This document shows, in pieces, positions 31,872 through 35,261 of a DNA stretch of 64,000 nt. Under the pieces are notes generated by a model that ran no database searches, had not been told where the DNA came from, and saw only the letters and a program-made list of their open reading frames with translations. Made by a program: the position numbers and the translations under genes. This DNA comes from Cyanobacterium sp. Dongsha4 (GTDB taxonomy: Bacteria > Cyanobacteriota > Cyanobacteriia > Cyanobacteriales > Cyanobacteriaceae): positions 1,935,326-1,999,325 of the forward strand of contig NZ_CP084098.1 of assembly GCF_036345015.1 (NCBI RefSeq), read 5' to 3'. Within the stretch, counting starts at the first letter, position 1. Every line of letters starts with the position of its first letter.

Positions 31872-32021
31872 AATAATAGAATTTTTTTAGTTAAATATAA
31901 ATATTTATCTATTGTGGTCTTATTTATTTTCCCATAGATTAACTCTCAAATATTATTTGTTATGTTGCTAGATAGGTTAGAATAGGTTTTAATCGTAAAT
32001 TTTGATCTGGAGATAAAGACC

Positions 32022-32288
32022 ATGTCAAGACTAAAAAGTTGGGAATCTCCCCGTCGTCAGGGAAGAAACGACAAGGGAAAGGGTGGTTCTGCACGAAAGC
32101 GACAGTTAAAGAAAAGATTACAAATGTTGCGTAATCAATTAAAAAGTAAAGGGGAAGGGAAAGTTATCTCTTCCTTTTTTTGTTTTCAACGGAATTTTAT
32201 TTTAATGTTGTCCTGTAGGCGACATATTGCGAATGGCGGTAATTTTCCACTGGTCATTTTGACGAGTAACAACAAATGTACTCCATAA
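32022..32288 (+). CDS. Small basic protein, C-terminus probably extended
   Basis: The first about 47 residues (MSRLKSWESPRRQGRNDKGK, then GGSARKRQLKKRLQMLRNQL) are strongly basic, Arg/Lys-rich and have good codon use. A GGAG ribosome-binding site sits 9 bases upstream of ATG. This part resembles small conserved cyanobacterial basic proteins that may bind RNA or ribosomes. The last 40 codons have a different, hydrophobic-Cys composition and run over a terminator-like hairpin and the 3' end of the convergent gene. I suspect an older stop codon near 32160 has been lost. Divergent from valS by 150 bases. Confidence 0.5.
   Translation: MSRLKSWESPRRQGRNDKGKGGSARKRQLKKRLQMLRNQLKSKGEGKVISSFFCFQRNFILMLSCRRHIANGGNFPLVILTSNNKCTP
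32153..32181 (+). terminator. Terminator-like hairpin
   Basis: GGAAG at 32153-32157 pairs with CTTCC at 32170-32174, with a 12-base loop, and is followed by seven T residues. It is inside the extended frame of the small basic protein, which is the main reason to think the true protein ends earlier. The stem is only five base pairs, so the call is tentative. Confidence 0.45.
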
Positions 32289-32546
32289 ATTTCTAACTCT
32301 ATTGTCATTTAATTCTATTTGATAGCGTGTATCTACGATCGCTATATTTGGGTCTAAAAATCGAATTTGCTCTACTGTGATAGTTCTTTTTCCCTGATTA
32401 GTATTAGAACTGCGTAACATCCCATTGATGGAACTTTCTATTCCTCTTCGCCATTCTCCCGAAGAAACTAATTGATCAATTTCAGTGGTTAAAATTTTTT
32501 CTAGTTGGGTAACGTCTTTATTTTCTCTGGCTTGGTTATATTGTTC
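32202..32546 (-). pseudogene. C-terminal part of an intron-disrupted NTF2/SnoaL-like exported protein gene
   Basis: The larger fragment of a gene split by the group II intron at 32547-34960. Read on the minus strand from base 32546 it is open for 114 residues: EQYNQARENKDVTQLEKILT, then SSGEWRRGIESSI, QIRFLDPNIAIVDTRYQIEL, WSTFVVTRQNDQWKITAIRN. This is the pattern of small NTF2-like (SgcJ/EcaC or DUF4440) proteins: an early helix, 'G...G...I', and strands ending in 'W.I.A.RN'. The frame joins exactly with the N-terminal fragment at 34961-35107, giving an ancestral protein of about 163 residues. Without its start and signal peptide this half is not expected to be made. Confidence 0.85.
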
Positions 32547-34960
32547 GTGCGATTCGTTCTAGTCAAAGTTAAGGCAAAATAGCCAAGACGTAAACTAGGC
32601 AAGGTTCACATATAATGTACCTTGACAACTTATTTACCATGAAGGTGTAAATCCTTCCCTCTCGATGTTGGAGTGACGGCATAACCGACAGTGAATTAGT
32701 GTTTGGTAAACTAAACGCTGAAGCTCGGTTAAATGGGAGTAATGAATAACCTTAATTCAAACTCTGTCTAGCGAAGTTATCCATGAGTAGGAAACAAACC
32801 TATGCCTGAATCATCGTAATTCCAATCCAGTGAAAATAAGGTTGATACACTGGGGACAAAAAAGTCAAAGGTCTAAGATACTAGCAGCCTGAAAATGCTG
32901 AACTAGGAACATCTATATAGACTCGGTGAAAAGTAGGATTCTAAAGATAACAAAGAATGGTAAATAGGAACGAAGTAACCCCACACTGACTCTTGTAAGA
33001 TGAAACTCACAAGTAGTAACCAGCGTAAGTCAATATGGGAAAGGATTGAGTAAGAAGCCAAAGCTCCTTTGTAATGAAAGAGATATGCTGACGTACTCAC
33101 TTTGATAAACAATGTAAACAATCGATTAGTAATTAATAAGTCATGGACTCGTTGAAGTATGAATGGAACAACTGGAACGAAATAGACTGGAAAACAGTCG
33201 AAATTGCAGTGTTCAAGTTACAAAAGAGGATTTACAAAGCAAGTCAACGTGGTGATATAAAGTCAGTACACAGACTACAACGTTTACTCACTAACTCTTA
33301 CTTTGGTAGGTTATGGGCAACCAGAAGGGTAACACAAGACAATCAAGGAAAGAAAACCGCAGGGGTTGATGGAGTCAAATCCTTAACGCCCAATCAAAGG
33401 TTTAAACTTACAAATAACCTTAAATTAAACGGTAAAAGCAAACCGACAAGGAGAGTTTGGATACCCAAATCCAACGGGGAGCAAAGACCACTTGGAATAC
33501 CCACAATGGAAGAAAGAGCAAAACAAGCTCTATTAAAACTAGCCTTAGAACCACAATGGGAAAGTAGATTCGAGGGAAACAGTTATGGCTTCCGTCCAGC
33601 AATGTCATGTCATGACGCTATAAAAGCAATATACAACAGTATAAGTCAAAAACCTAAATATGTTCTGGATGCTGATATAGCAAAATGCTTTGACAAAATT
33701 GACCATAATAGATTGCTTACAAAACTTGAAACATACCCAACATTAAGGAAACAAATAAAAGCATGGCTAAAGAGCGGAGTAGTTGATAAAAACTGGTCAG
33801 CTACTGAGAAAGGAACACCTCAAGGTGGAGTAGTCTCACCACTATTAGCCAACATTGCACTACATGGAATGGAACTAGAAATAAAGAAATTCATGGAAAG
33901 TGTGGATAGTCTCAAAGTTTTTGGAAGAAGGGTAAGTAAACAAGAAAAGAGAAATAGTATAAGTCTAATTAGATATGCAGATGATTTTGTAATATTACAT
34001 CACAACTTAGACATAATTCTCGAATGTAAAAAAGTAATTGAAGGATGGTTAAAGGAAATAGGGTTAGAGCTAAAACCTAGTAAGACTAGAATTTCTCACA
34101 CCTTATATGAATATAATGGACACAAAGGGTTTGACTTTCTCGGTTTTAACATCCAACAGTATAAAGTTGGAAAGAATCAAGGGGGAAAAACAGGAAGTAA
34201 AAACAACAAAAAACTCGGATTCACTACCCTGATAAGACCAACCAAAGAAAAAATCAAAGCCCATATACAAAAGGTAAAAGAAATCGTTAATAAGCACAAA
34301 AGTAGTCCACAAATAGCATTAATCAAAGAACTAAATCCAATAATAAGAGGGTGGTCAAACTACTATAGTGCGGTAAACAGTTCTGAAATATTTTCATACT
34401 GTGACCACGTTCTATACCTACAATTAAAAAGATGGGCAGAAAGAAGACACTCAACTAAATCGAAAAAATGGGTTGTCAACAAATATTGGCACACCAAAGA
34501 AAATAGAAATTGGGTCTTTGCTACGATTAAAGAGGAAGGTATGGGAATGGAGTTAGCATTACACGCTGACACAAAAATTAAATACCATACAAAGGTAGAA
34601 AAAGGCAGAAGTATATTTGACGGAGACTTAATCTACTGGAGTACACGCATAGGAAACTATCCTGAAATGCCTACAAGCAAAGCAAAATTGCTAAAAATAC
34701 AAAAAGGCAAATGTAACTACTGTGGACTGAACTTTAAAGATGGAGATATGTTAGAGATTGACCATATTATTCCAAAATCAAAAGGTGGTAAGGATATATA
34801 TAAAAATCTACAACTCCTCCATAAACATTGCCATGATGATAAGACATCCATAGATGGGAGTCTGAATTGTACCCATGACAAGGGGTTTATCAGAGAGGAG
34901 CGGAATGAGGTGAAAGTCTCACGTTCCGTTCTGAAGACGAGTGTAGGTGGCGACACCTAT
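32547..34960 (+). mobile_element. Group II intron (2414 bp) with reverse transcriptase ORF
   Basis: A retroelement inserted antisense into the NTF2-like gene. The 5' end reads GTGCGATTCG, the standard group II start. Domain V is at about 34898-34932, a hairpin of GAGCGGAA with TTCCGTTC carrying the GAGGTGAAAGTCTCACG core. The domain VI hairpin follows (GTGTAGGTG facing CACCTAT) and the 3' end is AT at 34959-34960. These ends were fixed by requiring the interrupted host reading frame to rejoin. The 5' 600 bases are non-coding ribozyme. A candidate EBS1, GGACAA at 32854-32859, can pair with the last six 5'-exon bases TTGTTC (one G-U pair). Confidence 0.92.
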
Positions 34961-34966
34961 GCTTAG
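33143..34966 (+). CDS. ltrA: Group II intron-encoded protein: reverse transcriptase/maturase/HNH endonuclease
   Basis: 607 residues in the order RT, maturase (domain X), HNH endonuclease. The RT active site YADD is at 278-281 (IRYADDFVILHH) and the fingers motif is TRRVWIPKSNGEQRPLGIPT. Domain X contains NPIIRGWSNYYSAVNSSEIF. The HNH module is at about 520-575: KCNYCGLNFKDGDMLEIDHI, IPKSKGGKDIYKN and LLHKHCHDD. All catalytic residues seem intact, so the intron may be mobile. The reading frame runs through domains V and VI and its stop codon TAG (34964-34966) is supplied by the host exon 3' of the intron, so the last residues after the HNH domain are ribozyme sequence read as protein. Confidence 0.95.
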   Translation: MDSLKYEWNNWNEIDWKTVEIAVFKLQKRIYKASQRGDIKSVHRLQRLLTNSYFGRLWATRRVTQDNQGKKTAGVDGVKSLTPNQRFKLTNNLKLNGKSKPTRRVWIPKSNGEQRPLGIPTMEERAKQALLKLALEPQWESRFEGNSYGFRPAMSCHDAIKAIYNSISQKPKYVLDADIAKCFDKIDHNRLLTKLETYPTLRKQIKAWLKSGVVDKNWSATEKGTPQGGVVSPLLANIALHGMELEIKKFMESVDSLKVFGRRVSKQEKRNSISLIRYADDFVILHHNLDIILECKKVIEGWLKEIGLELKPSKTRISHTLYEYNGHKGFDFLGFNIQQYKVGKNQGGKTGSKNNKKLGFTTLIRPTKEKIKAHIQKVKEIVNKHKSSPQIALIKELNPIIRGWSNYYSAVNSSEIFSYCDHVLYLQLKRWAERRHSTKSKKWVVNKYWHTKENRNWVFATIKEEGMGMELALHADTKIKYHTKVEKGRSIFDGDLIYWSTRIGNYPEMPTSKAKLLKIQKGKCNYCGLNFKDGDMLEIDHIIPKSKGGKDIYKNLQLLHKHCHDDKTSIDGSLNCTHDKGFIREERNEVKVSRSVLKTSVGGDTYA

Positions 34967-35107
34967 TTTAACTATTAGTTGATTAATTTCTTGCTCTTGA
35001 GGAGTTAATGTTTTTGTATTTTGAGCAGTTACGAATGAGGTGGATGATAGAAAAGTTGAAATTAAGAAAAAAATATTGATGATAAGAGTATGATTTTGGC
35101 TTTTCAT
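34961..35107 (-). pseudogene. N-terminal part of the intron-disrupted NTF2/SnoaL-like gene
   Basis: Forty-nine codons from ATG at 35107: signal peptide NIFFLISTFLSSTSFVTA, then mature QNTKTLTPQEQEINQLIVKL ending in Ser49. The next host codon is at 32546 beyond the intron, and joining Ser49 to Glu (EQYNQAR) restores a continuous helix and frame. Because the intron is transcribed from the opposite strand it cannot splice out of this gene's mRNA, so translation reads into antisense intron sequence and stops after about 13 more residues. The ancestral product was a small secreted protein of unknown role. Confidence 0.85.
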
Positions 35108-35261
35108 GATTTTTTAGATAGTAATATCAATGATAGATATGGCTTTATTTTCCTTGTTGAAAGTCGAATAATAATCATTCAAGATAACACACTGGAATAG
35201 TTAGATAATTTCCGTTAGGCTAAGACTACTATGAGCTTTTTTGCAACTATCTTTTTTCTGT

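Follow-up and report, generated by a model that had tools for sequence, protein, structure and literature searches.

The window, the whole 64,000-nucleotide stretch of Cyanobacterium sp. Dongsha4 DNA analysed here, contains a complete plus-strand group II intron that interrupts a gene on the minus strand. This arrangement raises the questions of where the element ends, what gene it broke and how it came to lie antisense at this site. Very probably, the element is a full-length, apparently intact cyanobacterial intron of the T.el4h kind, native to tnpB, which entered an accessory DUF4440 gene at a poorly paired site by ectopic antisense retrotransposition. The features concerned are listed in Table 1.

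Table 1. Features of the intron locus (window coordinates)
Feature	Position	Strand	Basis and remarks
Host gene 3′ fragment	32202..32546	-	Residues 46–159 + stop; no start before an internal ATG, only a 72-aa ORF left; DUF4440 match at 41–147 of the joined protein
Target positions −14 to −1, TGGTTATATTGTTC	32533..32546	+	8/14 with EBS2/EBS1
Group II intron, complete	32547..34972	+	2426 bp; flanks of exact second copy diverge at both ends; RF00029 to 34972; homologue gapless at junction
EBS2, ATTCCAA	32819..32825	+	Covariation over 13 introns; 7/7 with tnpB home site
EBS1, GAAAATG	32891..32897	+	Covariation over 13 introns; 7/7 with tnpB home site, one G-U
Intron-encoded protein	33143..34966	+	607 aa; RVT_N, RVT_1 with YADD, GIIM maturase domain, HNH endonuclease
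Domains V and VI	34896..34972	+	RF00029; fold z −5.5; includes candidate branch-point A at −8
Host gene 5′ fragment	34973..35107	-	Residues 1–45, signal-peptide-like N-terminus; frame continues for 17 intron codons (VKLSIGVATYTRLQNGT), then stop

Extent of the intron and its encoded protein

The 5′ end of the intron is GTGCGATTCG, at 32547; the GTGCG start follows the GUGYG pattern, as it does in the cousin introns. The 3′ terminus is CTTAGTTTAAC (...TTTAAC) at 34972, an AY ending accompanied by domains V and VI. A second genomic copy is identical at 2426 of 2426 positions, and its flanks part from those of the window copy exactly before GTGCG and after TTTAAC. The RF00029 match covers the full model (1–77; 55.8 bits, E = 3e-8). 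When 34880–34972 is folded, eight bases 3′ of the domain VI stem, AGUUUAAC, stay unpaired, so that a candidate branch A falls at −8; the stability of the folded end greatly exceeds that of its shuffled versions. Where a 3′ end was projected for cousin introns, it coincides with this one, and AAC or AAT is the final triplet in nearly all of them; their common ending is CTTAGTTTAAY, or CTTAGTTTAAC/T or a close variant.

Because the second copy, RF00029, the cousin endings, the domain VI fold and the gapless alignment of an intact homologue all agree, the true 3′ end of the intron is 34972, 12 bases past 34960. The initial annotation, which had proposed removing 32547–34960 to recover the exact ancestral frame of a 163-residue protein, was right about the strand and the GTGCG at the 5′ end; its 3′ end has to be moved and its protein shortened by four codons to 159 residues, the residues VKLS being intron sequence. 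The error is invisible in the reading frame, since a difference of 12 bases keeps the frame. With both sides free to shift by as much as 12 bases, 209 of 625 joins keep the frame, and all of these are open; an in-frame join therefore has no power to place the intron end. An end at 34960, with an ancestral protein containing VKLS, does give a join that is in frame and open, but any displacement of the 3′ end by three bases or a multiple thereof does equally well; moreover, the second copy runs 12 bases further in identity with the window copy, the intact homologue lacks the four residues, and the domain VI stem would be cut and branch A lost. The probability of this reading is close to nil. As a lesson of method, an in-frame join cannot position an intron end, because all multiple-of-three errors pass.

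The intron-encoded protein (IEP) combines reverse transcriptase, maturase (X) and endonuclease domains; its matches to RVT_1, GIIM, HNH and TIGR04416 (the NCBI model of group II intron reverse transcriptase/maturases) are all above cut-off. The closest relative of solved structure is 6me0 (E = 1.3e-102, residues 9–573), which the structure search names only as a maturase reverse transcriptase and which we take to be T.el4h. Through this resemblance to the 6me0 maturase only, the intron may be likened to group IIB and its protein to class CL2; CL2 introns are nearly restricted to cyanobacteria (PMC4424553). The intron is probably active in splicing and mobility, the identical second copy being indirect evidence, at the sequence level, for self-splicing and retromobility. 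The IEP frame is open through domains V and VI (34897–34966) and stops at the TAG of CTTAG. Among relatives (loci L109–L180), 41 IEP frames class as running past the start of domain V, most of them stopping at the same place, and 21 end before it. This tail may be translated for a purpose or may be a by-product of RNA conservation.

The interrupted gene

Excision of 32547–34972 yields a 159-residue protein with the junction ...EINQLI|EQYNQAR.... The sole intact homologue found is in G003, a genome of the same family and a different genus; it also has 159 residues, is 71% identical over residues 1–157 and reads LIEQYN through the junction with no gap. An intact, collinear protein of the kind expected in relatives thus exists, at a length of 159 and not 163 residues. 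At the DNA level, the G003 gene aligns to 32199–32546 and 34972–35107, the one-base overlap being a shared C; since the alignment abuts at the junction, the insertion left no duplication and no deletion. The ancestral junction is defined by this one intact homologue. A scan of the joined host protein against the genome contigs gave no match.

The joined protein matches PF14534 (DUF4440) at E = 7.6e-11, with 42.9 bits against a cut-off of 25.2 (37.2 for the homologue), and TIGR02246 at 8.7e-10, also above cut-off. The AlphaFold model of the C-terminal fragment (single sequence, mean pLDDT 78) has three helices and four strands, and its best match is the NTF2-like structure 3b7c. The host protein is therefore predicted to be NTF2-like; the Pfam match carries this assignment and the structural match to 3b7c is modest. 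Its likeness to DUF4440/SgcJ–EcaC proteins, which have the NTF2-like fold, comprises both family matches and the 3b7c-like model; it differs from them in the signal-peptide-like N-terminus, and enzyme function is not implied. The intron lies between residues 45 and 46, at the start of the domain. That the fragments come from one ancestral gene with an NTF2-like product, as initially proposed, is confirmed by the intact G003 homologue and by a DUF4440 domain that spans the junction. Two genes that were always separate, with an intron between them, would fit the presence of the two fragments as distinct ORFs in the window; a single protein in G003 and one domain crossing the junction make this history exceedingly improbable.

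On the minus strand, the 5′ fragment stops after its 17 intron codons; the 3′ fragment has an in-frame TAG 18 bases upstream and no canonical start until the internal ATG. Both protein fragments are probably non-functional. An antisense group II intron contributes no ribozyme to the host transcript, so splicing would give no rescue, as had been claimed from the opposite strands of intron and gene; antisense targetron insertions, which are unspliceable, unconditional disruptions (PMC3706431, PMC3898094), support this analogy. These targetrons share with the window intron the bottom-strand position in a gene, but they are engineered, with the EBS redesigned to the target, whereas the window intron is natural and its target unmatched. 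The locus is a clean natural counterpart of deliberate targetron practice.

Among 15 family genomes, 2 have the host gene, and the second genome of this genus lacks it; 120 genomes drawn from the order gave one further marginal match only. In the congeneric genome, the neighbours on the two sides of the locus are dispersed over three positions, none of which has the block 32198–35196. A simple counting estimate against G003 gives a dN/dS of about 0.16 at a dS of about 1.1, values which indicate that the host gene was under purifying selection. Both fragments are free of stops and frameshifts, and the intron copies show zero differences. Patchy occurrence, undecayed fragments and identical intron copies together support an accessory gene that was broken recently; dispensability and recency, offered initially as alternatives, both hold. 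Zero differences between the copies could, however, reflect either recency or gene conversion, which are indistinguishable here, and this weakens the dating.

Relative to the congeneric genome (G014), the region 31950–35197 is a synteny breakpoint, with valS, a small basic ORF at 32022 and a cupin-like/hydrolase block at three different places. Between the small ORF and the intron, at plus-strand positions 32148–32179, lies a terminator-like hairpin with a T run that may restrict plus-strand read-through into the intron.

Guide sequences and the native home of the intron

The exon-binding sites were located by aligning 13 family introns, each with its own target, and scoring every domain I position for pairing to the flank 5′ of the same intron. 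Covariation singled out two positions, EBS2 and EBS1. A plain-complementarity search for EBS1/IBS1 had returned many chance 6-mers and was replaced by this procedure.

The home site predicted from the EBS before look-up was TTGGAATCATTTTC. An empty tnpB in the same genus (G014) reads TTGGAATCATTTTT|TGAATTTAATGAATGA, coding WLWNHF|LNLMNET, and pairs at 14 of 14 positions, one of them G-U; the tnpB site of G008 pairs at 13, and the 5′ flank of the second copy at 12, a level reached by 0.03% of sites. The pairing found at the window site is reached by 10.4% of sites in the window, so that EBS1/EBS2–IBS1/IBS2 pairing is present at the tnpB home and lacking where the intron now lies. Because the EBS-predicted site pairs fully there, the native home is most likely the sense strand of an IS200/IS605-type tnpB, at ...CRWLWNHF|LNLMNET.

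The pairing statistics treat two 7-base elements in a fixed register, and a one-base bulge would lift IBS2 from 4/7 to about 6/7. Retrohoming into a truly matched site, its pairing misread through such a bulge or a wrong EBS register, would accord with a consensus TTGG that is one base off (−15 to −12), with the TTC that IBS1 keeps at −3 to −1 and with an intact HNH domain, which makes double-stranded targets possible. It is nevertheless unlikely, as the register that leaves the window site at 8/14 gives 14/14 and 13/14 at tnpB and 12/14 at the other chromosomal flank. Ectopic retrotransposition is the preferred reading: an intron copy resident in sense orientation in IS200/IS605-type tnpB genes would have been the source, and from such a copy the intron would have moved into the antisense strand of the accessory gene for a putative secreted NTF2-like (DUF4440) protein, using the target despite its poor EBS/IBS pairing. 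The native home, the donor-like identical copy, the target mismatch and the uninterrupted homologue are all readable from sequence.

The element type and disruption by antisense group II introns are already known, with close precedents in Thermosynechococcus. T.el4h and related introns of Thermosynechococcus elongatus (PMC2882425) are likewise cyanobacterial and present in multiple copies, and the window IEP is closest to 6me0. One T. elongatus family homes into an IS200-family element, and some copies stand at poorly matched IBS sites, which Mohr et al. read as infrequent retrotransposition, expecting only well-matched copies to splice efficiently (PMC2882425). By this standard (PMC2882425), the window copy, with its 8/14 pairing, would splice poorly even in the sense direction; antisense orientation, although it blocks splicing, is thus only a part of the explanation of the knockout. 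The T. elongatus introns differ in that the guides of the window intron point to another site (tnpB WNHF|L) and in that most of their poorly matched copies are intergenic, whereas the window copy is antisense inside a protein gene.

Other copies, cousin introns and orientation

The identical second copy lies at G000:C1:3844253-3846678 (L095 3254-5679), in the opposite orientation and 1.9 Mb from the window copy. Its flanks are hybrid. On the 5′ side stands an uncharacterised, antisense-oriented gene, which is broken between T and EEDSNTNV of a 390-aa G014 protein; on the 3′ side is a sense tnpB of the IS200/IS605 type that begins ...LNLMNETYKQ. Both are without starts. The missing N-terminus of the 5′ host gene was looked for in the genome and not found. 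An assignment of this gene as a WYL regulator was unsupported by Pfam and was dropped. The flanks would fit an event in which two intron copies recombined and the DNA between them was lost, as proposed for TeI4f/TeI4g, the exon-shuffled T. elongatus pair that L095 resembles. Misassembly through the repeat is possible at the second copy; the window locus is free of this doubt because a single ancestral gene accounts for both its flanks. The plasmids searched hold only partial relatives of the intron (60–90%), and no plasmid donor was found among them.

A 68% identical cousin of 2758 bp (L096 2922-5679; G000:C1, ~3.494 Mb) is also antisense in a gene, and its removal restores a DUF1214 protein (PF06742, 1.8e-38) at KD|KEANW. 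For cousin L003, a 5′ end at 909 was replaced by 895, as only the upstream GTGCG restores KD|KEANW. Three insertions in this genome are thus antisense to a gene (the window copy, L096 and, with respect to its 5′ flank, the second copy). In other genomes, all eight accepted intragenic cousins with a spanning ORF are in sense, in genes for CutA1, Thy1, PMT_2, DCD, three OrfB_IS605/TnpB proteins and one RRXRR (IscB-like) protein. Cousins L074, L080 and L089 split the conserved genes cutA, thyX and dcd in sense, where splicing should be needed. Sense insertion in genes of TnpB or IscB-like (RRXRR) proteins, which are transposon RNA-guided nucleases, has occurred repeatedly (L083, L086, L090, L091 and the tnpB home site).

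This antisense/sense contrast between genomes is suggestive but comes from a small sample, and it is accounted for by survivorship, in that sense copies able to splice are retained and ectopic copies in dispensable genes are young. It might also be taken to mean that the window insertion is kept for a role, either as a source of antisense intron RNA that silences the gene or as an invertible pair with the second copy. A gene already split needs no silencing, however; the match of the window flanks to one ancestral gene shows that the window copy has not taken part in an inversion; and the antisense set amounts to three events in one genome. A retained role is accordingly very improbable. Slightly less remote, yet still improbable, is a departure of the intron family here from sense retrohoming to antisense ectopic spread, with three insertions in three unrelated genes. 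Were this a change in target choice, and not chance or survivorship, the family would be in transition from a spliced guest to a plain retrotransposon. In other respects, the window insertion is a commonplace mutation of an accessory gene and an ordinary kind of mobile-element event.

RF00029 also matches at G000:C1:2145506-2145594 (-) and 1428615-1428691 (-), where no nearby reverse transcriptase ORF was seen; one of these two sites lies beside an apcC-like ORF and the other directly follows secA.
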